64,000 bases of DNA from Haliclystus octoradiatus (Eukaryota; Cnidaria; Staurozoa; Stauromedusae; Haliclystidae). Positions 183-45,830 of the stretch are shown here, one piece after another. The position numbers and the translations under genes are program-made. Each line of letters opens with the position of its first letter. Position 1 is the first letter of the stretch. The notes under the pieces were generated by a model. It searched no databases. It was not told where the DNA came from and was given only the letters and a program-made list of their open reading frames with translations. The stretch is from the NCBI GenBank assembly GCA_916610825.1, contig OU744446.1:30270445-30334444 (forward strand). The letters are read 5' to 3'.

Positions 183-288
183 ATTAAAATCCCCACCCTT
201 TGGTGGGGTTTTGGGATTGGTGCTTGGTTGGTGGGAGTTACTCATTCGTTCGTTAGGCAGCTAAACTCGTGCTAACCTGTCTCCACCA
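183..288. repeat. Split direct repeat copy B2 (pairs with 864-969)
   Basis: This 106-bp segment recurs at a constant offset of 681 bp at 864-969, apparently without differences. It opens with a hairpin, CCCCACC-CTTT-GGTGGGG, flanked by AAAA and TTTT that extend the stem. On the element's own strand this hairpin forms the extreme 3' end. Related terminal sequences in inverse orientation occur near 34020-34137 and 44190-44310. Confidence 0.85.
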
Positions 289-523
289 CTCGAACCAAGC
301 ACCGTCACACTGATATTCAGTGGAGAAATTAAAACTACCCTGTTGAAATAAAGGTTAGACATTCTACATTTTTATACAGAAATATTAACTCAAACATAGA
401 CTCTACATTCATCTAATAGCAGTCACTATAGTGTCGAACAAAGCCTAGCCTATATGAGACTAAATACCTGCTAACTTATCTGAAGTATAACCAGCAAAGA
501 CAGTAATGGAGAGGGCGGGTGGG

Positions 524-866
524 AAGCAATCGAATCACGACTGTTTCGTGTACGTCTTGACATACTTGCGTTGCGTTTAATTAAATGCGAATTCGTTCGT
601 TCGTTATTGACCTGCTAGCAAGCTAGCACATGCAAGAATGACTACACCCTTACAGTATCACGACTCTTACCGTCTGTTGTGGAGAAGAGGCTGACCAAGA
701 TCACATGATTCCAGGTAATGCAGTGCACTAATGCCTCGTGGCATCTGATGGCATACATTCAAACGAGGCAATTCCAGCATAACGATTGTACGTAGGACGT
801 ACTTCGAACCCCCCCAAAAAAGGTCTGGATTTTAACCTCAAAACTACATGATATCTAGTTACAATT
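524..866. repeat. Split direct repeat copy A2 (pairs with 5841-6160)
   Basis: The segment repeats 5841-6160 with a few substitutions and a roughly 20-base extra stretch near 580-600. On the minus strand 5841-6160 covers the element's 5' end and the first codons of the gag-like ORF, so the internal copy duplicates the gag start. It contains a CTAGCAAGCTAG dyad and runs directly into repeat B1 at 864, giving the contiguous B1-A2 junction expected of Ngaro elements. Confidence 0.82.
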
Positions 867-969
867 AAAATCCCCACCCTTTGGTGGGGTTTTGGGATTG
901 GTGCTTGGTTGGTGGGAGTTACTCATTCGTTCGTTAGGCAGCTAAACTCGTGCTAACCTGTCTCCACCA
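864..969. repeat. Split direct repeat copy B1
   Basis: This is the second copy of the 106-bp terminal module at 183-288. It lies immediately 3' of the recombinase ORF in element orientation and abuts copy A2. The two B copies look nearly identical although the ORFs have decayed, which suggests either a recent insertion or homogenisation of the repeats. Confidence 0.85.
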
Positions 970-1086
970 AAATTGGACTCCAAGGTGCTTGGAGAAGAGA
1001 TACAGGTTCTTATCTGTAGCTCCCACCAAATTATGCCCAAGCAGCAAGCACAAACATCAAACTGACTTTCTGGAAAAGACATCAAG

Positions 1087-2108
1087 CTATGCCAGAACAC
1101 TGGAAAAGGTTGAAAGTGATGCTGGTGAAGTTCTGGTATATAGCAGATATGCTTGGTTATTCCAGCGTCCTAGAGCTTTGATGATATGATCTGGAATGCC
1201 ATTACGACCAGCCACTGTTGCGGCCCCAATTCTGAAACTGTGCGTTGAGAAATTTCCGGGAATTTTGGACTCCACAAAGATAGAGCGCAACCAAGTGGAC
1301 AGACGAAGACGAGACAAGGTATCGCCAGATTTATATAAGAAAAGGGGTCCAGCCTTTTCACCACGCTTGAACAAATAAGCAGACATAGCTGCAACAGCAC
1401 ACAGTCTTGATGATCCAAGGCCAATATGGACATAACGTCCTTCACAGAATGAATCAGTTTTGGATGCCTTGATTCTAACTCGCATACAAGTAGGTGTAAT
1501 GACTGAATCAAAAGACAGATCAGAAAGCTGCAAATGGATTGCTGAATCAAAACTTTGTAGATTCGGTACGGTGAACTCTGATGACCTGAGGAATCCAAAG
1601 TATGCTAGCGTGCATGCAGCCCAAAACATTATGTGGTCTTCACATGTGAAATTCAATGACCGATGAATAATTTCCATGAGCGAGTCTGTAATGGGCAGAC
1701 GAGGTATAGTGCTGTCAAGGTGTGTCTTTTTGATTCCTTGACAAAGTCGATGGAGGCATGCACAATTTATTAGTGGGTCTGCAAAACCTTGCTCTAGATG
1801 TAATGCTCTTACAGCCGATAGGTAAACCTTGATTGAAGGTAGCTTGAGTGAATCAGACAAATGAGTCACAAACAAGCATAACATTGACTCAGTAGTAGGA
1901 CAAGGAGATGAATAGCCATGCTGAGTTGAGAACACCAGAAAACGATGTTGGGCAGATACGTACGTCTAGTGGAGGGTGCTAGGCTGTTGCATATAAGTTG
2001 CTGACATCTTGCTTGCAGTTGATTTATGCCAGGTCCATCAACAACCGGTTGTCTAGCAGTGTTGGACAGTCTTTGGCAGAGGGTGCCAGTTTGAAGAATA
2101 CCTGCCAA
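1087..2108 (-). pseudogene. Tyrosine recombinase (YR) of the Ngaro-like element, frameshifted
   Basis: Two overlapping frames cover the gene: an N-terminal piece (2108-1866) and the main domain (1935-1087), so a frameshift lies near 1900. The main part has the expected core residues. An arginine sits in a YFGFLRSSEF context, a lysine in ASKTD, an HxxR box in HSFRIGAAT, and the probable nucleophilic tyrosine near the end in LGRWNNQAYLLYTR. The family catalyses strand exchange between a circular DNA intermediate and the target. It is the most 3' ORF, as in Ngaro elements, and its N-terminal piece overlaps the end of the pol frame. Confidence 0.82.
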
Positions 2109-3688
2109 TGAAAGCGAGATAATGCATCAGCAATCCTGTTGCTGATGCCAGCAATATGCTGTGAGCTGTGAAGTGAAAGAAAAATTCTGTTGTGCGGCCA
2201 CAAATAGTAATTTTCTTAATAGTCGCATGATTACAGGAACCTTAGAAGTCCGACAATTGAGAATGTGAACAACTGCTTCGTTGTCGCATCGAAAATTTAC
2301 ATGACAACGCGTCCAGTCTGAACCCCAAATGTGAGCTGCAACTACAATGGGGAACAGTTCCTTATATGCAATTGATTGCTCTGCTTGATATTTGCTCCAG
2401 ATTCCATTAAACCAATTTCCTTGGTAGTATGCACCATAACCCATTGAAGCAGAAGCATCAGTAAACAATTCAAATTCAGCGACTGTTGGCATTCCCGGGA
2501 ACAACCAAAAACTGACGCCATTCCATTGACCAAGGAAGTTATGCCACCAAAACAAATCTTGCTTAAACTCGCAATTCAGTCGCACCGGATGAGAGTTTGA
2601 TCTAAAGGAGCCCAGCAAATTCAACATACGGCGTATAAAGGTGCGACCAGGCCAAACTACTTTAGCTGCATATGGTAAATGACCAATAAGAGATTCCAAT
2701 TCGTTGCGGTTACATCGCCGTTTGGAAACCCACGACTCTATCATAGATTGAAGGTTGGTCAGTTTGTCTGCTGGGAGACAAGCAGTCTGAGTTAGAGAGT
2801 CTAGCTCAATGCCTAGTACAACCATCGACGTAGAAGGTCCTTCACATTTTTTGGAATTGAGTGGTAGGCCCAATTCCCTGCATACCTCTTGCGCTAAATA
2901 CCATTGGCGAGCACATTGATCTGAATCAGGTGGCCCTACCATGATAAAGTCGTCCAAATAGTGGACAATATTTGATACATCAAAATGGAATGATAGAATC
3001 CATTTGACCGCTTCAGCCACTGCGTTGAAGATAAATGGTGCCGATCTCAACCCAAATGGTAGGGTCAAGTCTACAAAGTAATTGCCTCGCCACTTCATAC
3101 CTAGTAATGCCCGGTCTGTCGGGTGAACCGGAATATTCCGGTAAGCAGCTTCAACATCAAATTTTGCCATCAGCGCTCCAACCCCAAGGCTTCCTATCAT
3201 TGAGAGAATCTGGTCTAGCTGGACATAATGCGTACTAAATTCAGACTTATCAATGCCGTCGTTGACGCTAGAGCCACAGGGGGCTGACAAATCTACTATG
3301 AATCTACAAATCGCCATTTTCCTGGTTGATTCTTCTTAGGAATAACGCCAAAGCTACTGACTTGAAGTCCATGGATAGGAGGAATGTTGAAAGGGCCAGC
3401 AACTCTTCCTAAGTGTACTTCATTGTCCAGATAGTTATCAATCACTGAAGAATATTTGTGGGCCGAAGCATTATTCTTTTTGGATGACTTGAGACGCTGC
3501 ATAGGGTTAAATCCCAATCTAAAGCCTTCTCTGATTCCACTTATAACGTAAGAAGCAAATAAGGAATTAGGATGAGAGGCCAAATAATAGGCAAAACAAT
3601 CCACTTGTAAAGGAGTGATTGATGCAATTGAAGGCAAAAGACTTGCAGCTAGAACAAAAATCAAAACACACTGAGCCACATCCAACAA
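2024..3688 (-). pseudogene. Reverse transcriptase-RNase H polyprotein of the Ngaro-like element, frameshifted
   Basis: An N-terminal piece (3688-3296) ends in KKNQPGKWRF. The reading continues in another frame at 3317 with VDLSAPCGSSVND and the RT core: FDVEAAYRNIP, LPFGLRSAPFIF and the YLDD catalytic box. An RNase H domain follows (FTDASASMGYGA, then an asparagine/aspartate-rich tail). The break near 3300 looks like an 8-base insertion made by a small local repeat. A second, 1-base shift near 2165 moves the RNase H end (RIADALSRF) into the frame that closes at 2024. Family membership is clear; the copy cannot be translated as one protein. Confidence 0.85.
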
Positions 3689-5118
3689 TTCTGCTCAATC
3701 AACACTGAATTAAAAAAAAAAAAAAAAAAAAAAAAAACGGATTACGGATTACGGATATCGGTCCGCTATTCTGTATTCCGTATTTTAATTCGGTGTATCC
3801 GTTAAATTTGATTGCGGACTTCTCGGTCGTTACGTCTGAAAAGATCTGCTGCTATCTAAGAAAAAATTTTTTCAATAGTAGCTGATGAATTTGGCAGCTA
3901 AATGAGACAAACAAAGGGGGGTTACACAATTACATTGACCATGCCTTGGCCAATCTAAAAGAGAGGAAGCATTTATTAGCCAATCGGCTTTGACTACATT
4001 TTATAATGAACCAGTATAGCTATTGGATTGAGTAACGAATTTGTTAAGCTGCCTATTTGTTTGGTCTAAACCTATGGTCAAAGGATTAGTCACACCTTTG
4101 TACAAGAAACGTTTTTTTTTGGCGACACAAGCAAGGTAAACTATATGCCTTGAGATTTACTTGAATAGTAACGTAAATTTGCATTTAAGTTTTGATTTAC
4201 AATTCTATTGGCTCCAATTTAATCTACACTCGTATAACAACATCGAAAGTTACAACAATAACCAACGATCAAGGTGCGATAAATTGAATATATTTTTTCA
4301 TTTACAGCTAACAGCAGTTTATGTTTTTGTAAATAAAACTGACAGTACTATTGCATGCATACATTCCTCGACCTTGGTTTGAAATCGTGACCTTATTGAA
4401 GTCGTGATAAACAATGTTTCGGATAATTAAATCGTCACAGTTGAGACACTCAAAAACAAAAACAAGACATATTTTATGAATAAGCTCAATGACCAAAAAC
4501 TCGCTTTTTTTAACGCATGCCTCGGTTTTCAGACTTGTATGGCCACAAACAAGAAACTCAGAACAACCCTTCACCGTTTTTTAATGACAATAAATAGACA
4601 CAAAAACACAACGAATTGAATTGAGTGTAAAATAATCATTGAAACACTATGATAACATTAAGAAAAGAGTAAATAAGAGAAAACAGTTATAAAACCACTA
4701 ACTACTATTTTGTCAGTGAAGGAAGTCAACAAAATAGAAATAAAATAAACAAACTAGACCAACATATATATAAGGACTAACGCCGTTGCAACTGCCTGCT
4801 GTCGGAAGGCTTGAGAGGTTGTACCAAAGCTGGCACATTAAATTGTTTATTGCAGTCAATACTTTGATGGCTTTCTGAACATTTTGAACATATATGATTG
4901 AATCGGCATACTCCATACCGCGATGAACACCATCCACCGTTCTATGATGTGCATACTCGTAATCCGTCACTGGTACCACTGTTACTCATAGTTCTGCACC
5001 TCTTGTAGCTGTACCACCTTTTTCCGAACGCGTGTGGTCTAGTCGAGAGCGAACAACAGCTCCAGCAGTATGGTACGTGTATAATTGATGGTTGATTAGA
5101 GACCAATCTGATTGTTGA
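3689..5118. other. Non-coding interior of the Ngaro-like element
   Basis: This AT-rich stretch lies between the gag-like and RT frames. It contains a poly-A run at about 3712-3737 followed by a short tandem of CGGATTACGGATTACGGAT. No domain-bearing ORF was seen on either strand. A nested insertion or deep decay of a gag-pol linker would both explain it. Confidence 0.5.
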
Positions 5119-5880
5119 CTAGCTGCGGAATTGGCGGAATAGCCGGATTATGACAAGTTTATAAGACGATAAGTCCTTCCATCGTCCAGGGCAATAAGTG
5201 GTTAGTACTGACATAAATATTGTGAAAACTTCCACCCAGCTGATAATATCGTCAATCTTTCGACGATTTGATTTTGGCTTACCAATTAAAATAGCGAGAC
5301 CGTCCATAACTAATTGTGGCTCTGTCTCAACGTCAACCACCGAAGGCGACAATAGTTCAGATAGCTCTATGAAGCGACCATTGACTATCTGGCCAACCAG
5401 CTTAGCTGGAATTGGCGAGTAACCTGGACCAATAATATAAGGTTGAAAGACCTGTGGCAGCGTAGGCAATAGGCTGCTGGTGATTGGTGTCGTAGTATCC
5501 AGTGATGCAGATGTACCAGATAAATATGTGGCAGCTGCAACGGCGTCTCCGCTAGACAACGGCATAGAAAAAGTATTCACAAAAGAGGGCATAGACAATA
5601 AACCTGACGTACCTGGATTAACGCTGGCATTTGCAGTTGGTAAATGTGCCGATGGTGCGCTTACCGGAGCCGATGGTGATGGTCTACTAGCTGCCATTAC
5701 AGCTTGTGCCACGTCGTTAACAAAATCCTGGCGTTGTTGAGGGTCTTCAAACATACCACTCGGAAAAGAAGGAACTTCTGAAGTGACTTGAGGAGACGTA
5801 ACCAAAGATGATCTTGATTCCGGTATCACATAAGGCATTGAAGCAATTGAATCACGACTGTTTCGTGTACGTCTTGACAT
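5119..5880 (-). CDS. Gag-like ORF of the Ngaro-like element
   Basis: This 253-codon ORF is rich in Ser, Pro and Ala over its first two thirds. Its C-terminal part has a tryptophan-led segment (WVEVFTIFMSVL followed by YCPGRWKDL) resembling the conserved stretch of DIRS/Ngaro gag proteins. The last residues look out of frame, so the true gag is probably cut short by a lesion near 5150. Its first codons lie inside repeat A1, which explains the duplicated start at 524-560. The gag assignment rests on position and this short motif. Confidence 0.6.
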   Translation of the reverse strand: MSRRTRNSRDSIASMPYVIPESRSSLVTSPQVTSEVPSFPSGMFEDPQQRQDFVNDVAQAVMAASRPSPSAPVSAPSAHLPTANASVNPGTSGLLSMPSFVNTFSMPLSSGDAVAAATYLSGTSASLDTTTPITSSLLPTLPQVFQPYIIGPGYSPIPAKLVGQIVNGRFIELSELLSPSVVDVETEPQLVMDGLAILIGKPKSNRRKIDDIISWVEVFTIFMSVLTTYCPGRWKDLSSYKLVIIRLFRQFRS

Positions 5881-6160
5881 ACTTGCGTTGCGTTCGTTCG
5901 TTATCGACCTGCTAGCAAGCTAGCACATGCAAGAATGACTACACCCTTACAGTATCACGAGACTTACCCTCTGTTGTGGAGAAGAGGCTGACCAAGATCA
6001 CATGATTCCAGGTAATGCAGTGCACTAATGCCTCGTGGCATCTGATGGCATACATTCAAACGAGGCAATTCCAGCATAACGATTGTACGTAGGACGTACT
6101 TTGAACCCCCCAAAAAAGGTTTGGATTTTAACCTCAACTACATGATATATAGTTACAATT

Positions 6161-6583
6161 TAATTCAAGCATTATTTATGCCTGGAGTATGCCTTATAGT
6201 GCGCATTAAATACGCCTGCTGCATTCGATCCAGTTAAAATGCCAAAATACGCCTAGTAGCTAGGTGTATTTTTCTTGTAGGTGTAATCCTTAATTGTTCG
6301 CAAATTATTTGAACAAAGACAGGGGTTGAGACATTTAATTTGTATCGTTTAGACGCAGTTGCATGGCAACAGCATAGCAACTCACAAGAAATATGCCAAT
6401 GATGGTAAGGTCGTTTGGAGATGATTCAATGAACAACAGAGACAAAGGACCAGCGACTTAAGTGTTTCAAAAATTGATTTTTGAAGTGGTTCACTGTTAT
6501 AAGGATTATTTTCTTCGCTTTTTAGAGTTAATACTTGATCTGTCTATTGTATTAATTTATAATTGTTTTTGTTGCCTTTTTAG
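6161..6583. other. Intron or flank upstream of the visible RGS exons
   Basis: This AT-rich stretch lies between the retroelement end and the first recognised RGS exon. It probably belongs to the RGS intron into which the Ngaro-like element inserted. No exon was recognised in it. Confidence 0.4.
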
Positions 6584-31000: not shown

Positions 31001-34000
31001 TGTTGGACCTTGCTCTGAGTGTAAAGCACAACTAAACTCTAGAGCAGGAATGTTGGATCAGCCTCGTATTTTCAAAGTAGAACATTTATAAATTTTTATA
31101 AAGATTTGGGCATCTACAGTTGTTCTGTTTTAATATAGCTAATAATCAATTGACATACAGTTTCCTATGAGCTATTGATATTTAGCGCATGGGAGGCACG
31201 TAAAGAGAAAATGAGAAAGCTTCAGAAAATTACTCACCGAAATGGCTCGTAATTTTCTGATGCCTTCTCGCTATCTGCTTGCGTGACTGGAATGCGCCAA
31301 ATATCAATAGCTCATAGGAAAGTGTGCGCCAATTGCTTTGTATTATAACTAGCACAACTTTTATAAGCATTTACATGACTTTCTTGTTCATGAAATGTTT
31401 TTGAAAACTCCTGATCAAATTGGAAATTCTGATTCGTGGTATCAAGTTTGAATTGTAAGATCGATTGCGTTCTCGAACCTAGTTTTGCTATGGTAATTTG
31501 GCGCGGCAAACTCTAAACCAATCAGATTGATTGAATAATTTTCGTTATAATACAATTGACAACAGCTCTGAATTTTCTAAGCAACTCTCTAATGCAAGTA
31601 GGCTTCAGTTATACATTATCATATAGCAGCAGACAAGTACATGTTTCTGGCCATTAGCCTTCATCATCATACGGTATATATATTGTTGTGTACCATATTT
31701 TATGTTGTATTTTATCTAGATTTAATCAAAGAGGGACTTCTTCCTTCTTCTCGGCCAAAACTCACAATAAATGATGATGATGATGATGATGTTGACAGTA
31801 ATTTTTCTGCACCTATACAGCAAAAAGTAAGATACATCTAATTTATGTCAAGCTATATCTGACAAATTACTGATTACAATGGATTCATTAAGCTAACAAA
31901 TGTTATTGTTTAATTTGTATTTCACATTAGGCACCTGTTGCAGCTCCTCTTCAGAATTGGATGCAAAAGCCTTTCCAGTCAAGTGCTACACCGCCTCATC
32001 TATTACATCGGTATATGGTAAGCTAACTTTATATCAATCTATGTTTGCCCCAGCATACTTTGGATAAATAAGCAAATAAAAACACGATTTTAGAGCTTGA
32101 TATTCACCATTCTCGGATTTCCTCCTTTTCTATTAGCTCCGAACAAAGTAAACTCTGATATAGCTATTGTTTAACTTGATTTTCAAGGATTTTCCTCTCT
32201 TTTTGCTGAACTCCACTCTCATGCATACATTCCATTGCATTACATGTTATATCTGGCTATGTTGATTACCCACCATATACAACCTCTATCATTTTATTAT
32301 CCTACCTCACTTGGTGGTCCAGTTTTTACATGCACCATATATCAGGAATATTAAGCAAGTTTGACAATATAATGCCTACAAATTCTGATAATAACGATAA
32401 CAATTTATTATATTGCAATTGTTTTAGGTATGGAATTCTACTGGAATAATAAAATGTCATGCAGAAGATGACTTCTCCACAATTGATATTGAGTTTCATG
32501 ATACATCAACACATCATTCTTTGCATGTCAGTAATTCATTAAATCACACAATGGCAGCGTTATCAACTACAGCAGCTGTGTTGGCTTGTGAGGGGGACAA
32601 TGAATCACCAAGGTACATATACATATGTTATTTTAAGTCACAAAAAGGCTGCCGAGGGACACATTCTGATCCTCATTTTTCGTGATCAAGAACTGACCCC
32701 AGTCCAAAAAGTGTGGTTTCGGATAAATAATTTGAAAAGTCAAACCTAGTCTTTTAGATGCATCACATATCCTCATGAACATTGAACATTTCATGAAAGT
32801 TATGGTAAAATTTAGGCAATTTCACATCAATGAACCGGTTCATGAATTTTTTCACAAGGGACGCCTGTGGAAAAATGATCCGAGTTCACGAACGTTAAAT
32901 GGGTCCGATTTCTGCAGATTCAAAGGTGGGATGAATAGATGATTCTGAGGTGAGTTTCACACAAGAAGATAATCAGGCGATTTATCAAGTCTAATGTGCG
33001 TCATCTTCATCTTTTAATGTTCAAATTCAAACTTTCAAAAAAAATTAACCTTGATTTCCTCATACATGGTATGGAGTAGGTAAGTTATGGCTATACGGGG
33101 TAGCTCTTACAAAAAACAGTCAAAACTTAGAATTAAAAACGTGTACAAAATTTAGCTTTAGAAGCTAATTGATCCCAGGTTATGTTTAAATGCAGTAAGA
33201 GAAGACAAACATACAATGAACCAAGGTAATTGGTTCCAATTATTTAATGTTGTTGAATGTAATTCAGACGATATTAAATTTGGATGCACCGGGGGATGCA
33301 CTAAGAAATCTCAGGTGATTGACAAGACATGTACTCATTGTAATGGTCTGGGAATAGATATCAATTAGGTCACACGATCACATCTTCAACTGGGCATGTC
33401 GAAAGCTCAGAGATGTTCTTGTGCAATCATTGCATATCATCATATTGTTCTGACCTCAGCGTCAAGCATATCTTGTGCAATCATTGCATATCATCATATT
33501 GTTCTGACCTCAGCGTCAAGCATATCTTGTGCAATCATTGCATATCATCATATTGTTCTGACCTCAGCGTCAAGCATATCTTGTGCAATCATTGCATATC
33601 ATCATATTGTTCTGACCTCAGCGTCAAGCATATCTTGTGCAATCATTGCATATCATCATATTGTTCTGACCTCAGCGTCAAGCATATCTTGTGCAATCAT
33701 TTGCATGTCATCGTGTGGCTCGTCCTCAGCGTCAGTCAAATTGTCTCTCTGGTCAGCCACGTCTGCACCAATTCATCAATATTTTCGAGATAGTCATCTC
33801 AGAATCTCTCGCATATTCACATGCGTCATACTCACACAGTAACGTTGTTGCTATTCCTGACATCTTGATGTCGGTGACCGCTTGCTTACAAGCTAAAACA
33901 ATAGTTCATACAATCTGTTCAACTGTAACACTAATATCAATCTCAATCATGAACTGGAAGAAGGTGGGGATTTCTTTCCCCATCCTCCTCCCATTACCCA

Positions 34001-37000
34001 AGTATTAAGGTGAAGAGGTTAGTATATTAGATTCCACTGTATTATCAGTGTGACTGGTGTCTGATGGTGGAGACAGGCCTCTCTCCAGCCAGCTTGTGTC
34101 CACAATGACCGTATCCCACCATCCACGCACCTAGGCCAAATTCTAGATATCTTAGGCAGTTAAGTTTAACAACGCGAAATGAGAAAATTAAGACCGTGCA
34201 TATTGATAGTGAAAGCAAAGTGATTTAATTAAGGCTCATATTATATTTCATTATCTTTCAAATTAGAAAAAACCTCATTCATTAAATTTGAAACTTATGT
34301 CTTTTGTCTCTTGTATAGTCAACTAGTTTGTATGCATTTTGGTTCATGGGATACAACTAAGGAATGGACTGTTTCTATGCCAAAAGATGAACATATTAAG
34401 GTTAGAAAATTGATATCCAATGATTATCTAAATAATAATTGGGACAGTATCGCAATGTCGAAGGCACCCGTACCACTCTTCTATTTCTATTAGAATGGAT
34501 CTTTTCGCTAACAGATTAATGATAAACGATGATACAGAATCCATCTAGAGAGTCCTTCTTGCAAAAACAGATAAAGTTTACAATACTGTAAATAATCACA
34601 TTTTCTGCTCATTGAATTCCTAGTACAGTGAAACCTGTATATAACGGCCAGCCAAGAGAGGTAGATAAAATGACCACTATAGACAGGTGGCCTTTATATA
34701 CAGGTTTGATTCAATAGAAAATACTGTTTTAGACATTGAAAGAGTGACCACTATAGACAGGTGGCCGCTGTATAGAGGTGACCGTTATAACAGGTTTGAC
34801 TGTACCATAGCCTACTTACGTGCACTACAAATTTTGAAAATCTGAAAACATACTGAAAACATACTGAAGAGTCTACTGGATCGGACACTTTTCATGATCA
34901 GTAGCTTTCAAGTTTCAAGATGCGTTTCAGTAGCTTTCAGTAGAATGAGAAGAATCTAAATTTAAGTTTCTGGTGAATTTCATTATGGTTTCAGCAGCCA
35001 ATCCCATTTCAATGTGTTTTCAGTACGAGTAGCGATTCAGTAAAAGGAATGCTTGCTAGGATGTAATCTTACAAAGAATTACAAACTTCTGTGAGAACAG
35101 ACAACTATTTTATAATCTTATAGGACCTTGTTGCAAATTCATGTTTGTTTATGTTCAATAGACATTTGCCATGTTTCTACTTCAATTAACAGAGTCACCA
35201 TACCAATATTCTGTGTTATTTTGTTCCTAGTGTGTTGCAGTGAATGATACACATATTGCTGTTGCTACTGATGCGGAATTCATTCGGATATTTAGTAGCA
35301 CTGGAATACAATTGCAAATGTTCTCAATACCAGGTCCGGTTGTTACTATGGCAATGAGTCCCATGGAATTAATATTAACATATCATATTGGAATGGGTGA
35401 GTTTAGATTTCAAAATAACCTAATTTACACCATTAGTGATACCATAATGTGGTTGTAATGTAAAAACTCATTATCTATACTTGTAATTGTGCGGTAATTG
35501 ATGTTTTAATCCGTGCTAAAAATTACCTGGCTGATAAAATGTCCATATCAGAAACTCTGTCTATGCCGGATTAGCTAGATAGGGGTATAAGATATAAATC
35601 CTTAAATCAAGACAAGCAAAGATTTTATCAAATAAAAAAAATTATTACATGACATCTCGGTCCTTTGAAACTATTTACATTCAAAAAATAGCAAATTCAA
35701 TCTAAATGGTATAGAGAAATGATTCTGAATTGAGAATTGTTCTGATCCTTTATGCAATGATCTGGATCCGATATGGACCCCAACATTATGATCCAATAAT
35801 CGATAATAATACTAATATCACAGATGATAAGTTGTAGGATCAATTTTCTTCTGACTTTGCTCTAGCCTTCCGGAATCTAGGATTCTTACTTTTGAAGGAC
35901 CCTGGGCAAATGCAATTATCTCTTGGTAGATTCTTTGGATTCTGTAGTTCCAAAAACTCAACAAATGGTATCTTGTATTGTGCTACTCATATCCTGTTTC
36001 AACTCTAGGTCTACCGAAATCACAAAGTCTTGGTATGCAATTGTATGGTATAAAAAGAAAAATTAAAATGCTAAAAGAACAAAATTTACCATTGAAATTA
36101 GAGACAACACTTGCATGGCTCGGGTAACTTCAATTTTCAATCTTAGTTTATGATTGTGTTTAATTATGTAATGTAAAAAAATACATTTTTTGGTATATGT
36201 ATGATGTTGTAGTAAAAAAAAATTGGCTCGACGCAAGGGAGACAGAAACAATGCACTCGTTACACAATATACGTTTACTGAATCTTCAACGAGAACCAAA
36301 AGCAAGAGGTGCAATTACAAACATGTGGTACAACTTATACAATAATCTACGCATGACAAACAATACCGCTGACACTATAACCTAATTACCCAATTAAAAT
36401 ACACCATTTACAATCACATGATAAACAATCAATTAGCAACAACTTTTACATCAATAAATCACAGTAAGACCTACAACACAAGACGATATAAATATAATAA
36501 TACATACATAATATCAAGACAACATTCCCATAACATGCACAAACACATCTTTCTATACATTCCACCCAGCAAAAGAAATACAAATTTATACAACAACAAT
36601 TAATCTATGAATTTAACAATAATTCAAGGCATTCTATCAAAAACAAGCACTTTAAACAAAATAAATGTCAATTCAAAGTATCATAACGTCAGTAATGTCA
36701 CTAATCAATTGACATAAACTCGTGAACACACAATTCTACCATAAAAGATGATAATAATGATAAAAGTTTTAAATAAAACGTTCAATAATTACCATTAACT
36801 CAATCCAATCTTCATTTTTCACCAGCATTCACAGACAATCAAATAATTATACGATATAACTTTAAAACAGCCATATGTAATTGCTACGCAAATTCTTTCA
36901 ACATTTCAATCTTTAATCCAATGTAAACAAATCTTCAATCCAATATAAACAATAATATTTATAAAGCAGCCACGCAAACATTACAGCACCTCTCCTGGTT

Positions 37001-40000
37001 GGCAAACCAATCTGCCCATTCTTCAGACGGCAAAACAGTAGCGACTCTCCTTCAGTAGTATTTATTAAAAAAATGTGGCATTTCAATTTCATATCAATAA
37101 TTATCATTTCTAAACATTTTTAAAAAGGACTTGAACAATTTCTTAAACACATCAATTTGAACAATGTATATTATGAAACAAGGTTGTCCCCCTTGTATCT
37201 TACGTTTGACAATTGGCCCGTTAGCCATTCAATGTAGAAAATAATAATAGCAAAGTTTATTTTCGACTTGGAAATTTGTTTTTTGTGCATTTTCATTGAA
37301 AGGGCCACGTTCTGATTCAAATATAACCAGAGATAAACAAGAATCTGTATTACAGCAAAACTCCATTTGATTTTACATATAAGAGAAATTTCAGACTTTG
37401 TCACTCAACATCACAGAAAATTTTTGTTTTAATACATTATTGTGAAACTTGAACCATAAAACATTTTTTCAAATTATAAATTTGTTTTCATTAATAATTG
37501 CCTTTGTGATTTTTAAGTTAACTTATTGTTTTGAGATTCATTTTTTGATCACTTGGATGCTCATGATTTTCATTAGAAGATGAAAGGCAGAGAAATGGTT
37601 GTTTTTTATGTAATCCTTTTTATCTCTATTCAAACAGACCTACTTTCTTTGTTTGTGGTTTGGTTTAAAAACATTTCTTATTTTGAACTCACAAATATAC
37701 TTGTTGCTCAGGTGGTCATCTTAAAAGCTGAATTTTGAAAAGCTGAGTCCATAAAATGCTCTAAACATTGTGACTATGCTCTCTAAGTTTCCTTGAACAT
37801 CCTTTTGTCAATTCTATTCAACTCTCCACTGAATGCCATGACGTGTTCTTGGTTTCACGTCATAACGCTAGATCTAACATAAATTACAAATTTCCTGATT
37901 TTACAAAAGAAAATTATACCCTTGCTAATATTTTCATCCTCAAATGTTCTGTCTTTAGATTCACTGTTGAAGGGTCTCCAATATTTGCTGATTCCCGTGG
38001 CATTGTTCATCTCTATCAAAGACAGAATATCAATATGTGGCTACCAGTGGCTAATTTGAGATCTCAGGTAATTATAATCCTTTATAAGAACTTGAAAAAA
38101 AATTTAAACAGTATGATGCATTGATATATGTAGCAAATATACTGGATTGAGATTAAGGATTTTGTTAGTAACTTTGAACATGATAGGTACTGATTATTAT
38201 TATAGCCACTTTAAACATTGTGTTTTATTTTTTAACATCATTTGTTATTTCTTTATAGCTGAAAAATCGTCTTGATAATTATTGGTTAATTGGTGCCCAT
38301 GAGAACCCTGCTCAATTAAGGTAAGTTAAATACTGATTTAAAATACTGATTCAATGGAATGGAAATGTGGTATTTTACTGTCAAGTTGACCAATATAGGC
38401 AGGTTGTTAAAATCTATGTGACCATTATCTCAGGTTTGATTGTATATAACTTTGTTTTAATTTCTAGATGTGTATTTTGCAAAAATGCTAAATTCCCTCC
38501 AATATTACCACGACCTATACCATGTAATGTTCCATTTTGTATGCCATTGTGCGACTTATCGACAGATAAAGGGAAAATGGAGGTAAGTTACGTAGACCTA
38601 CTGATTGAAAATACACAATGATAAAATTGTATCTAGGGAAAGGATAAACAGCTGTATGCTGTTATTATAGTAGCATGAAGAATTACCTCAGATGACATGT
38701 TTAGAAAATTGATTGATTGATTACATCAAGAACTAAGATATTGCAACTCTTAGGCAATACCAAGGAAGAAAAACCATTGCATCTCTCAATCGGCTTACAA
38801 AGGTTTATTTGCTTGGAATCTCAAAAGCTCAGCTAAAAATAGTAACAATCAAACGCTCACTTTGTAAGTTTATTGTTTCCAAACCTATACCAAATTGATA
38901 ATTTATGAAAAAGGCTTCGCCAAAACATGAATTTCATGGCTTTACATTGCAAATTGGTTTTATCAAATGATCCGTCAAATGTGTTGGTCGTAACTCGGAG
39001 ATGTGAAATATATTTAATTTGATTCATTTTCATTTCATAAAGGTTAGATAACTTTCTACCCTTTTAAGAGTACGTAAAATTGCAGTTTTGAGTTACACTA
39101 TCTTCATTCTAATTCTAATATCTTGATTATATGTGCCAATCAGTTGTTGCAGCCTTTTGAAATCCTATGACTTTTATTTTACCTATAATAATTAACTTCC
39201 AACTGTTGTATAAAATATATATATATGTATCAATTGTTCAATTCAAGGAAAACCTCATCCGCTCTCAAATGCTATCTGAATCTTTATCGCATCAAAGAAA
39301 ACATCACCTACCTGTAGATGATGAACTAGGTGCAGCCAATTCAAAAGAACATCTTCAACTATTAATGAAACTATTTGCTGTAAGTATGTGCTCCATGGCA
39401 GTTGATGATACAATTGGGCTTGTAGATTCAAGATAGGATTAATGGATTAATGGCAAGTTCATTCTACAATCGATCAATTGATCAACACTATTTAAAAAAA
39501 GCTAAATATAATCTCAAATTTTATAGTGAACGATCCTTCTCTTATGTAGCACCGGCCCTTTGGAATGAAGTCACTACTGAGCTAAGAGATTGCACTTCAA
39601 TAGATATTTTTAAATCAAAATTGAAAACATTTTTATTTACGAAAGCTTTTATGTAACTGGACTGCTTCATAGATATATAATAAATTGATAAATGTAAATA
39701 ATAATTTTTAACAATAGAACACAAATTCTTTTAATAAACTGTTTACCGTTTTAATTGTATATATTGTAAAGCGCTGTTAGATATTTTTTTATAGAAATAG
39801 CGCTATATTAAATAAAATATTATTATTATTATTATTTATCAGAATCTTCTTGGTGATAATTTTGGTACAAAATAACAACACAACTAAATTTGCACAACGT
39901 TTCGACTGATTGACTTCAGCCATTCTCAAGTGAATGTTTTTTATTATTAATTAAGATATATATGTACATAAAAATGGTTTCCCCTGGAGGGTAAAGTTAC

Positions 40001-43000
40001 ATCATGAAAAATATTTACAATTATATGAGATCTATATCAGTGACAACAGTAACTATGGTAGCTAGCCTATAGATATGAAATGCATGCAGTTATTTGAAAA
40101 CTTTGGCCCGGATGGAATCGCCCTGAACGTTCAGGATTACAATGTATTCAACTAACGTCTTGCTTGGACCCTTAATCTGACCTGTGAAGTGGTTTCAAAA
40201 TTTAGAGCTCAGAATACCAATCGCTTATTATATTTTTATAATTTGATGGCTATTATATTTAAAAATATTATATTTAAGTTTCATTATTCAAATTATTCAG
40301 ACTTATACAGATAGTAAACTTGATTCTAAAGAATATCAAATGGCTAAACGAATATTTTAATTATTGCTAAGAAGATTTTGCTTGATTCAAAGTCTGTTTC
40401 ATTTGTTTTGAGCATAAATTGATTGTTCATATCCAATTTCAAGCGATTTGGACTTACAAGCGACTTTGCACAATATACAGTGTACAATACAATAGGTTTT
40501 ACAATGTACAATAAGAAAATAAGAAAGTAAAATACCTTGAATTCACTAAATCCTATTGCATTTTTCCTGTGTATACAAACTTCTTGTTCTTATTTACAGC
40601 TTGCTTGCAAATCTGATCGTGAATTCCGTGCATTTCAAGTATGTGAGTTAATGCCATCATCTGATCACGTCGCTCTTGCTATCCAATATGCAACACGGAT
40701 GCGTAATATGGCACTCGCTCGTAAACTGGATGACTTAGCAAGACTCAAGGCAAGCAGAATGGATTCTGATATTGAATTAAGTTCTGAAAGTGAAGAAGAA
40801 ATTGAACCAGCATTCACATCAAATCAAAATAACAGTAAACGGAAGACAGTTGTGATGAAACGCTCAAATTCAGTTTCAGTAAGCGGAAGGTTGGTATGCT
40901 GTAAGACTAATTTATATTCGACGCTTGCCTGCTGGATATTGATCTCCATCACTGGAAGGATCACTATCGATTGGGACATTTCATCATTTTCTTCGGAATT
41001 ATTTGCTTGATGTTTGACCTATAACTTAAAACAACCTATTAACTCTTACAAATATAAATTTTTTTCAGAATTTGTTCTAACCTTGGATCTAGGATTTTAG
41101 GATCCCCACTTTTGTTGAACCCTGTTTATGGGATGTCCAAGTATGAAAGAGTTCCCCAAAAATATATAAACCCCCTTTTTTAGCTGAATTGTACTACCTG
41201 GCATGTATGTTATTGCACCCAAGTCAGAATAACGATAAAAAATACAATCAGTTACAAAAAAGGTAATGAATACTTATTATGACATTAAATTTGTGCTGGA
41301 TTCTGTTCATCACCTCTAGTAAAAAAAATATGTGCTATAGCATAGCTGATGGTAGTTAAGTATCATCTATATTACTTAAATCTTGTTTAACCTTTCATAC
41401 CCACACCATCTATCCATGTAACCTTCAAATAGCCTTGCGCACTTGTACCTCAGTGGCAGAGTGTCCGCATTCTGTGCGGGAGGCCGGGGCTCGATTCCTC
41501 GTCAGTGAACACAAGGTTATCGTTAGCAATCATTTGTATATGGGGCGGGGTGACTCTTGGTCAGTAATTGACTCTATAATGTAATATTATTATATATTAT
41601 ATTATATTTCAATTGAATAACAATATCACAGAAGTAGTCAGTATAGACAGGTAACTACTATGTAGAGGTGGCTGTTATATCACATTGGACACATCAGTGA
41701 TGGAATAGCATTGAATTGTTATCTTGGGTCAATCTTTGTAATGTCACTCCTATAATTATTTCATAACTTTACCTATAGGTATGTTAAAGGGTTGCCATGC
41801 CGTGATAAACCAACAAAATCAATTAGCTCAATTCGAAAATCTGTTCCTCGTGTTGAACCAGCCCCATTTACAGACGATGAAAGTGAAAATGAGGCAATGA
41901 TAACAAATGGCATTGACGATGATGGTAGGTATAGATGTATAAATCTTGTGATTTCCATAATTCGATCTATTCTAAATGTAGCATACTTGTGAATAATACT
42001 TTTTTCTATACCGTCACAAGAACAATTAACATCCCCTGTTTTTACGTCCCATCTTGCTTGATACTCCTCCCCATTTAAAACTTATATCTTGCTTCCATTC
42101 TCCATACAAACTCTCATATACTACCCCTCTTTTTATTAGGGTCCGACAAAAGGCCAGTCTTCTGGAATCCTAGAGGCATTTCGACATTTTCTTCTGAATG
42201 TTTTTGTTGATGTTTGATCAATAAAGCATTCAACATATCAATTTTCTTCTGAAGTTGCTCTAACCTTCCTGAATCTAGGATTTCTACTTTTGCCCCACAA
42301 TGCTTGATGTCCAATCTGCACCAGAAAGGGTATTAATCAAATTCGACTAGATGTATGTACACTTCAAATCAATACCACTTCATGTATGGCTTTTATTTGA
42401 TAATTGTATTGATTTTAGACGCTTTAATCTCCAATGACGAATCTTCTCAGCCACCTGCCTCCGTCTCATCACAGCCATCATCTACAGTTCGTTCCAATCC
42501 TTTTAAATTATCAAACGCTGGGAATGATAACAAATCAGCGAAAGGAACATCATACTTTGAAACATTAGATACAACAACTGTCAAAAGAAAGTCCAATGGT
42601 AAGAAATTTCAAAAGGGATATGATTGTTTCTGATTGCTGATTGCTAAGCCGTTGATTTAATTATTATGACGAGCATATCTTACTTTCTTACACTCCGTCA
42701 ATTTCTTTCTCTAGATAGAAAAGTGTGTTTGCATTATACAAATATTAAACACTTTCTGTGCAATATGGGCTATATAAACACCAGTGCTGCGTCATGAGAT
42801 ACGAGGAAAGCGTAAGAAAATCCCGAGCCGCCGCTGCGAATGATTTTACGAAGCCTCTTGAGTTCCTCATGGCAACCAAATAAATAGATTGTGTTGTTGT
42901 TTACCTATACACTGTACCATGAGCTAGCTAGTATCATCAGATTGGATGTAATCTCATTTAACAATAGACTACTATTACAGTCACGTATGTTACAACGGTC

Positions 43001-45830
43001 ACCTCTATACAATGGCCACATTTCTATAATGGTCACTCTTTCAATGTCTAAAATAGTTCTTTGTATTGAAATAACCATGTATAAAAAAGGACACCTGTAT
43101 ATAATGGTCAGTTTATCTACGTCTCAAAGTTGGTTGTTGTGTACAGGTTTTACTGTAGTACGGTCGGAAAAAGAACCAATTTGAGATAAGTAGGGATGAG
43201 ACAATTGTTCTGAAAATAATTGTTTTTGCTGATCATTGGCACTTTTTTGATGATCGAAATATAATCGGCATATTTTATCAAGACAAATTGATTGTTTTCC
43301 GATTATTTTAGTGGTGAAAACAAGGTTTGTACATTAAAGAAACACAACTTGAGTTACGTTTTCGATCAGTTGCGTTGGCTGATAGAAGTATGATGATTAA
43401 TCACTAAGAGATTATAGGTACTCCTTGTGCAATTCTTTAGATACGCTTAAGGCCACTCGAGATTTTGAAGAAGAATTTTGTTTTATTTTGTTTTGATTTG
43501 TTAATATTTAAGCCCGGTTAGGCCATCATCCTTACAACTGATGCATTTATGCATGCATGCTATAAGAGTGCAATTCTAGAAAGAGAGTGGCATCTATACA
43601 CTTGCTCATTAATAGTAACCATCTTTCTAAATCTAGCAATAGTTAGGGTGTTTCTTTTCAATCCTCGGATTACCAGCCTGCTGCAGAGTCCTGAACAAAA
43701 GTTTGCTCATTTTTATTGCTTTTGCTTGTTGCTCTGCTGATAAACCAATGTAGGGTTATCCTGCTCATTGCTATCTTCAGACATAAGCTTGTTGCAATGC
43801 TTATCACCCGTTGTAGGGTTAAGTGATGTATCCGCATATATTTGCTGCAATGCTGAGCACCCGATGTAGGGTAAACTTCTGATTCTGCTATGCTAATCAC
43901 CCGTTGTAGGGTTAATTGATGTATCTGCATATATTTGCTGCAATGCTGAGCACCCGATGTAGGGTAAACTTCTGATTCTGCTATGCTAATCACCCGTTGT
44001 AGGGTTAATTGATGTATCTGCATATATTTTCTGCAATGTTGAGCACCCGATGTAGGGTAAACTTCTGATGCTGCCAACAGGCGCAAATGCAACCGTCTAG
44101 TTTTAATTAGAAGAGGGCTGTGGAGGGCTATGTTTGATTATCGCCCTCCCTCCCACACCATTGGGCAAGAAGGTGAGTATAACTAAGAACTCCACTGACT
44201 TAGCAGTGTGATTGGCCTTGGTTGGTGATGTCAGGTCTGCCTTTGGACTGCTAGCTCTTGCATATCGCTATAGTCACCTTCCACCAACCAAGCACCTATC
44301 CCAAATATCAGAGTAAGGTGAAGGGTTTAAAGAAGAATTTTGTTTTATTTAGTTTTGATTTGTTCATCTAGGTCAATCACACATGCAACAAACAATTACA
44401 ACATCGAAGTCAAAAAAAACGAATGAACAGAAATCAGTTCAATTGACATTAGGTGGTTTGAAACCAGCAGCAAAAAAGCAACAAGAAACGAAACCTAAAA
44501 AGTGAGTTAATAGTGAGCCACCATAAAAAAAATCTGATCAAAATCTTCTTATTATTACAGAGATGAGAATTTTCAGACTTTTAGCGGATCTCAGACTATT
44601 TCCATCCTTCTAAACTCTATGTATTGCCTTTTCTTCCATTGGAATCCATTACAAATTTCTAGATTTCCTTGATTTCAGACTATTTTTGAAATCTGAATTC
44701 TCATGTCTGTCTTAAACATTTTAAGGCAACAAGGATTACAGTTTCTCGATTTTATTTAAATGAGACCTGTATACTACGGGTTTGATTCAATAGAAAATAC
44801 TATTTTAGACATTGCAAGAGTGACCACTATGGATAGGTGGCCGCTGTATAGAGGTGATCGTTATAACAGGTTTGACTGTATTAAGCTCCACGTCGTTTTG
44901 ATTATAATTTATAATCATTTTCAAGAGAATAAAAATGTCAAATTGTGCATGTTATACACAACTTAAATAGAGTTTGAGTTTGAAATTTCAAAAATATAAA
45001 GCAATACAATATTTAACATTCTACAATTATGATTCTTTAAAAGCTATAAACTTTCCTGGGAGGATAGAACCATGGCATGTAGTTTGTTGGAACATGTTAA
45101 TTTGTGATCAGAGCGACTGCGGCTAACATTGTGATGTGCAATTTGTAGCTATGATACAGATAACTTACGTTTTGTTGAACATAAGCGTATGCCTCTTTTG
45201 CTTTTAATACTTGTAATGGTTATTAATATCTATACGGGGTATTTTGAATTGAATTAGCATTCCCCGTTCTCCAACATTTCTCTGGCATCCCCTTGTTAAG
45301 TCCTGGGCCTTTATTTAAATGGTTTGGATAGATAGAGAATGCTCCTGTGTTTATGGTCCCTCCCCACAGAAACTTAAACTACTGTAACCACGTGCGTTCT
45401 GCTGACGATCTAACTGTTTGTAACGATCTAAATGTAACTGCTAGCATTGCCAGACCTTATTCGATACCAATTTGTTCCTTCTAGACTAACTGGATTCCAA
45501 TTATACCTTGAAAATCTGAGAGAAAATACTGAGAACGATGAAAATGAATCGGACGCAGAACTAATTAAACGCGCAGCAGTCGCATGGAAAGGACTATCAA
45601 GCGAGGAGAAAAAAATATGGAATTCGAAAATAAATGAAAATAAATCCATAGATGAAGACACAAGAAAAAGGCAAAGAGTAATATCACCAAAATTAAATGA
45701 TGATACAAATAATAAAAAAGAGGAGGATAATGAATCAAAGAAACGAAAAGTTATATCAAAAGAAACAATTTCTACAGGAGTTAAAAGTAAATCAAAACTA
45801 GCTTCTTTTGCTTTTCAAAAGAAGGATTAG
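12058..45830 (+). CDS. WDHD1: WDHD1 / AND-1 (Ctf4) replisome adaptor, 29 exons
   Basis: Exons: 12058-12134, 12298-12409, 19893-19952, 21380-21471, 22922-23030, 23876-23926, 25085-25131, 25955-26000, 26436-26468, 27233-27292, 28546-28649, 29019-29103, 29566-29619, 30371-30584, 31720-31826, 31931-32017, 32428-32612, 34319-34400, 35231-35396, 36009-36123, 37959-38067, 38259-38320, 38468-38582, 39248-39379, 40600-40889, 41779-41924, 42419-42598, 44372-44501, 45485-45830. They sum to 3396 nt, 1131 residues, in frame throughout and close to the human length. N-terminal WD40 repeats include GTVKLWRI and SISIWDVEN. An acidic linker precedes the SepB-type middle domain ([39 protein letters not shown]). 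A C-terminal HMG-type box ([26 protein letters not shown]) and a basic tail close it. The family links CMG helicase to polymerase alpha and supports cohesion. Confidence 0.93.
12460..12797 (+). mobile_element. LINE fragment (same family as 13845-19010)
   Basis: In the second WDHD1 intron, this 340-bp piece matches the flank and start of the larger LINE: AATCATCATTATTAAACAT, TTCAAACCTGTATCTCAAACG and TGTACATGAAGAAGTTCTCTCC recur at 13845-13950 and 16720-16930. It encodes part of the region before the RT core ([20 protein letters not shown]). It is cut off at about 12797, where another repeat begins. Confidence 0.75.
12798..13250. repeat. 450-bp dispersed repeat, copy 1
   Basis: The segment from ACGTTAAGGGACGTCTACGATGG to about GGTGCGTAACAACCTAG recurs as a direct repeat at 20276-20722 in the next WDHD1 intron, with a few percent differences by eye. 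A diverged part is seen near 60725-60900 in ACTR3. No convincing coding potential was found. It may be a non-autonomous element. Confidence 0.75.
13681..13748. repeat. 68-bp near-perfect palindrome
   Basis: The two 34-base arms meet without a spacer at CCGCACATGTGCGG and contain the words GTGCAGGTATAGGTCTATA and its complement. I count two mismatches. Such a sequence can extrude as a cruciform. It sits in unique-looking intron DNA of WDHD1. Confidence 0.85.
13952..16704 (+). mobile_element. Penelope-like element (GIY-YIG type) inserted in the LINE
   Basis: Terminal segments are inverted: about 13969-14215 is the reverse complement of about 16478-16705. A further 25-base inverted match (14210-14234 against 14569-14593) joins the left end to the coding start. 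The LINE sequence ATTTTGTAAAT occurs on both sides, which suggests an 11-bp target duplication. Inside is an RT related to telomerase-type RTs and a GIY-YIG endonuclease, the defining pair of canonical Penelope elements. The inverted pLTR layout is one of the arrangements known for this class. Confidence 0.88.
14544..16476 (+). pseudogene. Penelope-like RT plus GIY-YIG endonuclease, three lesions
   Basis: The RT part (14544-15725) shows [40 protein letters not shown], the [14 protein letters not shown] box and the YVDDT catalytic motif. A 1-base shift near 15712 and an in-frame TGA near 15770 interrupt the linker. The next open piece (15833-16396) carries the endonuclease, with [19 protein letters not shown] and [10 protein letters not shown] third shift near 16388 displaces the last 28 codons, which end near 16476. 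The family copies RNA at a nick made by its own endonuclease. This copy is not functional as read. Confidence 0.87.
18669..18839. mobile_element. 'GTTCATGAAC' MITE, full copy nested in the LINE
   Basis: The ends are inverted: CCCCTGCGAAAAAAGTTCAGG on the left mirrors CTGAACTGTTTTTTGCAGGGG on the right. The interior has GTTCATGAACGTTAAATGG in both orientations. It interrupts the 3' region of the LINE, so it inserted after the LINE did. Confidence 0.75.
18896..19003. repeat. (ATCT)n microsatellite, LINE tail
   Basis: About 27 tandem ATCT units follow the LINE 3' end. A shorter GATA-type tract occurs near 19480-19570. Confidence 0.95.
20276..20722. repeat. 450-bp dispersed repeat, copy 2
   Basis: This is the direct repeat of 12798-13250, lying in the intron after WDHD1 exon 3. 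It starts with ACATTAAGGGACGTCTACGATGG and ends near GTGCGTAACAACCTAG. The right flanks differ, so the shared unit ends there. Confidence 0.75.
23107..23474 (-). mobile_element. tRNA-derived SINE with 17-bp target duplication
   Basis: Perfect 17-bp direct repeats (ATGAATGTGGGGCCTTA) flank it at 23090-23106 and 23475-23491. On the minus strand the 5' end is tRNA-like. A box A (TTAGCTCAGATGG) is followed by a box B (GTGGTTCAAATCC), the internal pol III promoter. The body runs about 290 bp to the 3' end. A fragment of the same body (CACCCGTACCACTCTTCTATTTC) occurs at 34455-34510. It sits in the WDHD1 intron between exons 5 and 6. Confidence 0.85.
24213..24563. repeat. 'CAGGGTCCGACAAAAG' MITE family, long copy
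   Basis: It begins with CAGGGTCCGATAAAGGCGGG and GGATCCTGGAATCCTAG, and ends with CCATTTTATCGAACCCTG. The ends are inverted relative to each other. It is longer than the other copies, so the interior may hold extra sequence. Confidence 0.65.
26030..26372. repeat. Fold-back element with three TIR copies and a captured gag-like segment
   Basis: TGTAGTCAAATGTAAAATAT followed by TTAGTCATATGTTTC occurs twice in direct orientation (about 26030-26070 and 26250-26290). It occurs once inverted (about 26322-26372). Between the direct copies lies an open minus-strand segment containing [18 protein letters not shown] and [13 protein letters not shown]. This resembles the middle of LTR-retrotransposon gag proteins, though the match is by eye only. 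The element lies in WDHD1 intron 8. Confidence 0.6.
26575..26650 (-). other. tRNA-like SINE head, degenerate
   Basis: The minus strand reads GGATTAGCTGAGACGGTAGAGC, a box A-like start close to the SINE head at 23474. No clear box B follows within tRNA distance. It is probably a SINE remnant. Confidence 0.4.
26744..26925. repeat. 'CAGGGTCCGACAAAAG' MITE family, copy
   Basis: It starts with CAGGATCCAACAAAAGGTTC and ends with CTACTTTTATTGGGTCCTG, which are inverted ends. Both GGGATCCTAGAGG and GGATCCCAGGATTCC are present. It lies between WDHD1 exons 9 and 10. Confidence 0.7.
27562..27750. repeat. 'TACAGTCAAACCTGT' MITE family, copy
   Basis: It runs from TTACAGTCAAACCTGTTATAA to TTATATACAGGATTCACTAACTGTA. 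Both halves have CCACCTGTCTATAGTGGTCA-type words, giving nested symmetry. Partial relatives follow at 28150-28225 and 28725-28890. Confidence 0.75.
30124..30305. repeat. 'TTGACCGG' dispersed repeat, copy 1
   Basis: The ends TTGACCGG and CCGGTCAA face each other. Inner words GAGTCACRTGC, CTGAAACCATGCT and AATTCAAGTTGAGCT are shared with the copy at 63195-63390. This copy lacks the outer CAGTG inverted repeat seen there. Confidence 0.7.
30762..30868. repeat. 'GTTCATGAAC' MITE family, copy
   Basis: It runs from CCCCTGGGAAAACCAGTTCAG to CTCCTGAACTGTTTTTCATAG and has inverted ends. TTCATGAAC occurs near both ends. It lies between WDHD1 exons 14 and 15. A weaker copy is at about 32770-32930. Confidence 0.65.
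30868..31015. repeat. 'CAGGGTCCGACAAAAG' MITE family, partial copy
   Basis: It abuts the preceding MITE. GGATCCCTGGATCGCC and ACTTTTGTTGGACC mark the right end. The left end is eroded. Confidence 0.55.
31148..31335. repeat. Fold-back element
   Basis: Outer arms TTTCCTATGAGCTATTGATA (about 31161) and its complement (about 31303-31322) extend outward with mismatches to CAATTG on both sides. An inner pair, CAGAAAATTAC and GTAATTTTCTG, gives a second-level hairpin. A similar two-level layout is seen at 52215-52403. Confidence 0.75.
33370..34140 (+). mobile_element. Non-autonomous element with 54-bp tandem core and Ngaro-like terminal module
   Basis: A 54-bp tandem array (33421-33713) is followed by a tail at about 34010-34137. 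The tail reads TCCACTGTATTATCAGTGTG, GGTGGAGACAGG, then CCACCATCCACGCACCTAGGCC. This matches, in order and spacing, the reverse complement of the Ngaro-like repeat at 183-310 and the tail at 44190-44310. A non-autonomous derivative of the split-repeat element, in plus orientation, is the simplest reading. The left boundary is not seen. It lies in the intron after WDHD1 exon 17. Confidence 0.5.
33421..33713. repeat. 54-bp tandem array, about 5.4 copies
   Basis: Units start GTGCAATCATTGCATATCAT at 33421, 33475, 33529, 33583, 33637 and 33691 (the last is partial and diverging). The units look identical up to the last. The period is a multiple of three, so long ORFs cross the array on the plus strand; these are not taken as genes. 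Confidence 0.95.
34624..34804. repeat. 'TACAGTCAAACCTGT' MITE family, best-preserved copy
   Basis: The left end TACAGTGAAACCTGTATATA mirrors the right end TATAACAGGTTTGACTGTA. Within each half, GACCACTATAGACAGGTGGCC occurs once in the same orientation. Other copies: 42980-43160, 44763-44882 and 55295-55482, plus fragments at 38380-38442, 41632-41690 and 54030-54080. Confidence 0.8.
39437..39837 (+). mobile_element. LINE 3' end (CR1/L2-like), truncated
   Basis: The ORF at 39450-39656 encodes a LINE RT C-terminus: [16 protein letters not shown], then [10 protein letters not shown]. After it come an AAGCGCTGTTAG / ATAGCGCTATAT hairpin region and an (ATT)n tail ending near 39835. This is the usual 3' end of L2-type elements. 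It is 5'-truncated and lies after WDHD1 exon 24. Confidence 0.8.
39838..40131 (-). mobile_element. Penelope-like element terminal fragment
   Basis: It matches the inverted terminal segment of the element at 13952-16704. It also includes the end of its coding region: AACTTTGGCCCGGATGGAATCG is the complement of the codons near 16440-16470. The copy is therefore 5'-truncated and in minus orientation, and it abuts the LINE (ATT)n tail. Confidence 0.8.
40940..41122. repeat. 'CAGGGTCCGACAAAAG' MITE family, diverged copy
   Basis: CATTTTCTTCGGAATTATTTG, TGTTTGACC and GGATCCCCACTTTTGTTGAACCCTG mark the family. Further copies are at 35838-35911 (partial), 42139-42297, 61473-61575 (partial) and 63880-64000 (cut by the window end). 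Confidence 0.6.
41445..41515 (+). other. tRNA-like sequence (possible SINE head or tRNA pseudogene)
   Basis: A box A-like TACCTCAGTGGCAGAG and a box B-like GGGCTCGATTCC are present. An anticodon stem (TCCGC/GCGGG, loop ATTCTGT, anticodon UCU if the loop is read normally) and a good T-stem (CGGGG/CCTCG) can be drawn. The acceptor stem pairs at only about four or five of seven positions. A working tRNA is therefore unlikely. Confidence 0.45.
43503..44329 (+). mobile_element. Element with 93-bp tandem core and Ngaro-like terminal module, flanked by 35-bp direct repeats
   Basis: The flanks at 43468-43502 and 44330-44364 are 35-bp direct repeats with one mismatch. The interior has a 93-bp tandem array (about 43798-44070). 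The tail is TCCACTGACTTAGCAGTGTG, then CCACCAACCAAGCACCTATCCC. This corresponds to the reverse complement of the Ngaro-like repeat at 183-310 and to the tail at 34020-34137. It lies just before the acceptor of WDHD1 exon 28. Confidence 0.55.
43798..44070. repeat. 93-bp tandem array, about 3 copies
   Basis: Units begin GCTAATCACCCGTTGTAGGG near 43798, 43891 and 43984. Each unit holds two related sub-units marked by CACCCGTTGTAGGGTTAA and CACCCGATGTAGGGTAAA. The minus-strand ORF over it is a by-product of the period being a multiple of three. Confidence 0.9.

Follow-up and report, generated by a model that had tools for sequence, protein, structure and literature searches.

Ngaro retrotransposons are not known to leave a target-site duplication, are held to insert as circles via a tyrosine recombinase (YR) without target duplication and, in the usual model of their replication, need a B1-A2 junction. 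Their order is given as A1, open reading frames (ORFs), B1, A2 and B2 in the relevant sections of PMC9210276 and PMC8547959, and the corresponding part of PMC4157794 describes DIRS and PAT as carrying a methyltransferase domain that Ngaro is without. The solo AB repeats of Cafeteria burkhardae Ngaro elements have, in the portion of PMC8547959 that treats them, the same anatomy as the two solos reported here, and the same recombination origin has been proposed for them; they belong to different families, and the phrase 'tandem repeats' is absent from the main text of that paper. Within a narrow range of the literature, including parts of PMC2685390 and PMC3783388, no tandem arrays in Ngaro repeats are described. 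DIRS-53_XT of Xenopus, in the section of PMC9210276 devoted to it, resembles the present elements in having A1 at its 5' end, B1, A2 and B2 at its 3' end, an RT (reverse transcriptase) and a YR, but differs from our families 1 and 2, whose A-B units include tandem arrays. The Xenopus elements described there also carry an SGNH hydrolase ORF; here, the search that would reveal such an ORF was a Pfam scan of four ORFs.

Architecture of the coding element in the window

The window analysed here is a stretch of 64,000 nucleotides of Haliclystus octoradiatus DNA, and at 184-6163 it contains an element (family 3) whose order of parts is that published for Ngaro and whose split direct repeats are complete:

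184..6163, minus strand: Ngaro-like coding element of family 3, A1-[gag-like, RT, YR]-B1-A2-B2, about 5.98 kb
184..290, minus strand: family-3 B2, with 106 bp identical to B1 at 864-969
306..324, minus strand: family-3 dyad between A2 and B2, with a 5-base loop
523..863, minus strand: family-3 A2 (350-bp alignment, 90.6% to A1 at 5840-6166)
864..970, minus strand: family-3 B1, with A2 directly after it
1090..1965, minus strand: family-3 tyrosine recombinase ORF (PF00589, E 1.2e-5, 25.6 bits, under the curated cut-off of 27.1)
2130..3335, minus strand: family-3 reverse transcriptase ORF (PF00078, E 1.2e-13)
5122..5919, minus strand: family-3 first ORF, gag-like by position only, with similar sequence in the family-2 region L070
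5840..6163, minus strand: family-3 A1

The gag-like ORF was without a Pfam match, and no methyltransferase domain was found in the four family-3 ORFs scanned with Pfam.

Ends, tails and tandem arrays of two further elements

An earlier note had observed two array-bearing stretches elsewhere in the window, each followed by the same tail, and had matched that tail to the minus strand of the end at 183-310. We searched the 262-Mb assembly (33 contigs) with the three tails, took the best 40 of 130 (family 1), 471 (family 2) and 211 (family 3) candidates and, per family, fetched 20 of these best 40 matches, each with 2 kb upstream. Element limits were set by comparison with sister copies, the 5' end being counted as reached when the probe matched from its first 10 bp. 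Both ends were located in 43 of the 60 fetched copies; 17 of these 43 had B1 and were uninformative on the left flank, and the other 26 were solos. One family-2 copy (L046), a short internal-deletion form, was left out of the solo count. The two elements were resolved as follows:

33244..34169, plus strand: family-1 solo A-B terminal repeat, whole unit, ends from sister copies, no B1 upstream
33417..33734, plus strand: 54-bp tandem array within family-1 A, 5.9 units, 96% match
34033..34052, plus strand: family-1 dyad TCCACTG-N6-CAGTGTG just before B
34062..34169, plus strand: family-1 B repeat, end GTTTAA (a B1 copy precedes A2 in L076; B also in L077)
43464..43502, plus strand: left copy of a 39-bp flanking direct repeat, overlapping the element by 2 bp (37/39 match to 44326-44364)
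43501..44330, plus strand: family-2 solo A-B terminal repeat, whole unit by comparison with sister copies, first ~10 bp of A missing
43793..44074, plus strand: 93-bp tandem array of family 2, 3.0 units, 96% match
44191..44210, plus strand: family-2 dyad TCCACTG-N6-CAGTGTG just before B
44222..44330, plus strand: family-2 B repeat, end GGGTTTAA (in L030, L037 and L039 a B1 copy immediately precedes A2)
44326..44364, plus strand: right copy of the 39-bp flanking direct repeat, its first 5 bp being the element's own TTTAA end

Copies with sharp common ends were recovered in all three families. Aligned copies shared a 3' stop point (GGCAGTTAAGTTTAA in family 1, GGTGAAGGGTTTAA in family 2 and GGGTGGGGATTTTAA in family 3), and their 5' ends were about as sharp (TTAAATGTTGTTGAATG, ACAAGCTTAATTAACATTTAAG and TTGTAACTATATATC, respectively), which places the window units at 33244-34169 and 43501-44330. 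Of the limits first proposed, 43503-44329 therefore held to within 2 bp, whereas 33370-34140 had to be extended, as sister copies show the unit to begin 126 bp earlier and end 29 bp later. Complete solos without an upstream B1 made up 11 of 20 fetched copies in family 1 and 10 of 20 in family 2; the remainder had no recognised A start or, in family 2, carried B1.

The tails of the three families are homologous: pairwise local alignments scored 35, 44 and 47, where shuffles gave at most 26, 24 and 26, and for each pair the observed score was reached by 0 of 1000 dinucleotide shuffles. All three have the CCACC..CC..GCACC block after the dyad (34033-34052, 44191-44210 and, on the minus strand, 306-324). 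The tail is nevertheless not the single module first envisaged, and is made up of two things, the B repeat and a dyad stretch that sits between A2 and B2 and is absent before B1. Judging by eye only, B1 is preceded in the three families by a second short dyad around CAAGCACCTTG, at about 978-994 of the window (minus strand), about 1978-1996 of L045 and about 2088-2108 of L077. On RNA folding, the family-3 tail did better than shuffles (z -5.3) and those of families 1 and 2 did no better (z -1.1 and -1.0), and for this reason we make no structural claim for the tails.

Both internal arrays reported earlier are present, and in the genome the repeat finder gave an array of period 54/55 for 15 of the 20 family-1 copies fetched (2.6-5.9 units) and one of period 93 for 5 of 20 family-2 copies (2-3 units), with none reported in the A-B region of 20 family-3 copies. 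Family-2 copies of 631-661 bp, compared with 726-755 bp, look like one-unit forms. That simple tandem arrays merely lie by chance beside truncated Ngaro ends would accommodate the varying unit number and the copies in which no array was reported (5 of 20 in family 1, 15 of 20 in family 2), but the same array sequence occupies the same place in 15 of 20 family-1 copies and the copies share a 5' end beyond it, leaving this reading a negligible probability. The arrays are instead a family trait, part of each family's own terminal repeat unit, rather than unrelated cores set between the ends as had been supposed. The 54-bp array of the window is 96% uniform compared with 76-89% in sister copies, suggesting local amplification after insertion.

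A further alternative is a Helitron or Helentron derivation, in which elements with tandem cores carry tails that only resemble Ngaro ends; a Helitron family had been named in the earlier note as a possible refutation. Non-autonomous Helentron relatives are known for tandem-repeat cores and terminal hairpins; a Helitron/Helentron 3' end is CTRR with the hairpin just upstream, and the autonomous partner carries a Rep-helicase gene. Here, both window elements and the 43 of 60 fetched copies in which both ends were found terminate in TTTAA rather than CTRR, and the tails adjoin split repeats and have remains of Ngaro-type RT and YR as their linked genes, so that this alternative does not fit and is exceedingly unlikely.

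Coding remains of families 1 and 2

In family 2, B1 (GGGTTTAA) is followed directly by the A start ACAAGCTTAATT in 3 of 20 fetched copies (L030, L037 and L039). Homologues of YR lie upstream of B in four of five long family-2 regions (L069-L072, with short C-terminal pieces only in L071), two of the five match the RT1 query and two the RT0 query, and RT pieces occur in L069, L070 and L072; the fifth region, L073, had neither an RT nor a YR match upstream of B. These remains share 39-63% amino-acid identity with the window proteins, and stops interrupt the translations of those from L069, L070 and L072. L069 has retained, ahead of its RT, a 192-bp part of A1 that is 97.9% identical to its own A2; this A1 stops before the array, and a family-2 array in A1 ahead of coding sequence was not seen. 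The split-repeat order of family 2 is seen in pieces only (L069 together with L030). Two regions picked as possible family-2 A1 copies (L079 and L080) were truncated or broken, with no coding match below E 0.08.

Some family-2 regions contain further repeats. Between the RT0 and YR matches of one copy lies a 116-bp tandem repeat, about 98% identical (L070:8116-8441), and a 141-bp direct repeat, 95% identical, stands on either side of a family-2 coding remnant (L072:7101-7241 and L045:2109-2249), and may represent either another kind of A or a repeat of the host. A family-2 YR fragment gave 150 genome matches, many in long open frames and falling into several identity classes; Ngaro copies seem to be numerous in this genome, and are perhaps recent.

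The family-1 case rests on two decayed copies, and here too the split-repeat order is seen in pieces only. L076 has B1, then an A2 without array, then B2, and neither RT nor YR was seen within its 3.7 kb. L077 has an array-bearing A (252-674), RT remains (740-1075), YR remains (1347-1778) and B (2120-2225), an order which, in this one copy, indicates that the family-1 array belongs to A1 in a family that once had coding sequence. An initial protein search, for which three pieces from family 2 were used, gave no match in L074-L078, L077 included; a more sensitive protein search found the L077 remains of RT (E 8.7e-12) and YR (E 1.4e-6), with a best score of 38.5 bits, where the highest among 30 single-base shuffles was 24.3.

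No family-1 B1 was found upstream in the 20 fetched family-1 copies. Intact elements were found neither for family 1 nor for family 2, and the coding remains of both are broken. Several family-1 candidates were set aside: L074 (C7:13980200-13986100), considered as a full-length element, is broken by other sequence and matched neither RT nor YR; in L075 no more than about the last 15 bp of B stand ahead of the A start; and L078 is a broken copy. Two 29-bp matches in L010, considered as family-1 B1, belong to another Ngaro-like family. L010 itself has a family-1 tail without family-1 A, and upstream of that tail (245-440 and 1338-1481 of the reverse complement) lies sequence of this further family, with the same kind of tail.

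Origin of the solo repeats

Taken with the junctions and coding remains described above, 33244-34169 and 43501-44330 are in all likelihood solo A-B repeats of two Ngaro-like families distinct from family 3, left by recombination between A1 and A2, with the arrays as part of the repeat unit. A whole element would read A1-[gag-like, RT, YR]-B1-A2-(dyad)-B2, and A1 x A2 recombination would remove one A, the coding part and B1, leaving one A, the dyad stretch and B2. This would resemble the solo LTR of an LTR retrotransposon, likewise a single terminal repeat left after recombination between two; unlike solo LTRs, the present repeats are split, are associated with a tyrosine recombinase and show no target-site duplication in 26 solos. 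The number of array units would change by slippage or unequal exchange, and L077, with A, coding remains and B but no A2, could reflect a matching B1 x B2 event.

The earlier note had instead proposed a new non-autonomous class that keeps only the recombinase-recognised end. Were A-B units with tandem cores copied in trans by Ngaro machinery, the ratio of complete solos to B1 copies (11:0 in family 1 and 10:3 in family 2, among 20 fetched copies each) and the presence of both natural ends in a solo would be accounted for. However, B1-A2 junctions and remains of RT and YR occur in both families, and a solo is without such a junction, which the usual replication model requires. Family 3 offers a further comparison, in which B1 stands directly before A2 in 14 of 20 fetched copies and is absent in 6, in which unrelated flanking sequence runs up to the A start and which are therefore solo A-B units. 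A tree built from the A-B sequences of all 20 copies requires 6 changes of the solo label, compared with a mean of 5.3 for shuffled labels, so that the solos are scattered among B1-bearing copies without clustering; with only one well-supported (starred) branch, the tree says little more. We consider the non-autonomous class very improbable. It is also unlikely that the array-bearing A segments are working regulatory modules and that family-1 and family-2 solos spread partly in trans through Ngaro machinery, not by recombination alone.

The flanks of the 26 solos with both ends contained no target-site duplication, the longest string common to the 40-bp flanks being 9 bp. The copy at 43501, which was outside this test, has the 39-bp flanking repeat, whose score was equalled by 0 of 650 pairs of window stretches set at the same spacing; the solo A-B explanation does not account for this repeat.

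The earlier observation was thus largely right and is partly confirmed, and its interpretation was half right: the tails do come from Ngaro ends, copies across the genome share sharp ends and there are split repeats, but the elements belong to Ngaro families of their own, with RT/YR remains, and each solo has both natural termini, the A start and the B end. Nor is the structure without a described counterpart, as had been thought, given that the solo AB repeats published for Ngaro in the relevant portion of PMC8547959 share its anatomy. As solo terminal repeats from further families of Ngaro, a known retrotransposon group, the two stretches are of an ordinary kind, and what was proposed as a new class finds its place among the solo repeats of that group. 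In annotation, array-bearing units of roughly 0.6-1 kb in this genome are accordingly to be labelled as Ngaro and not as unclassified or satellite-like repeats, and the tail of dyad plus B, common to diverged families, provides a handy probe for Ngaro ends.
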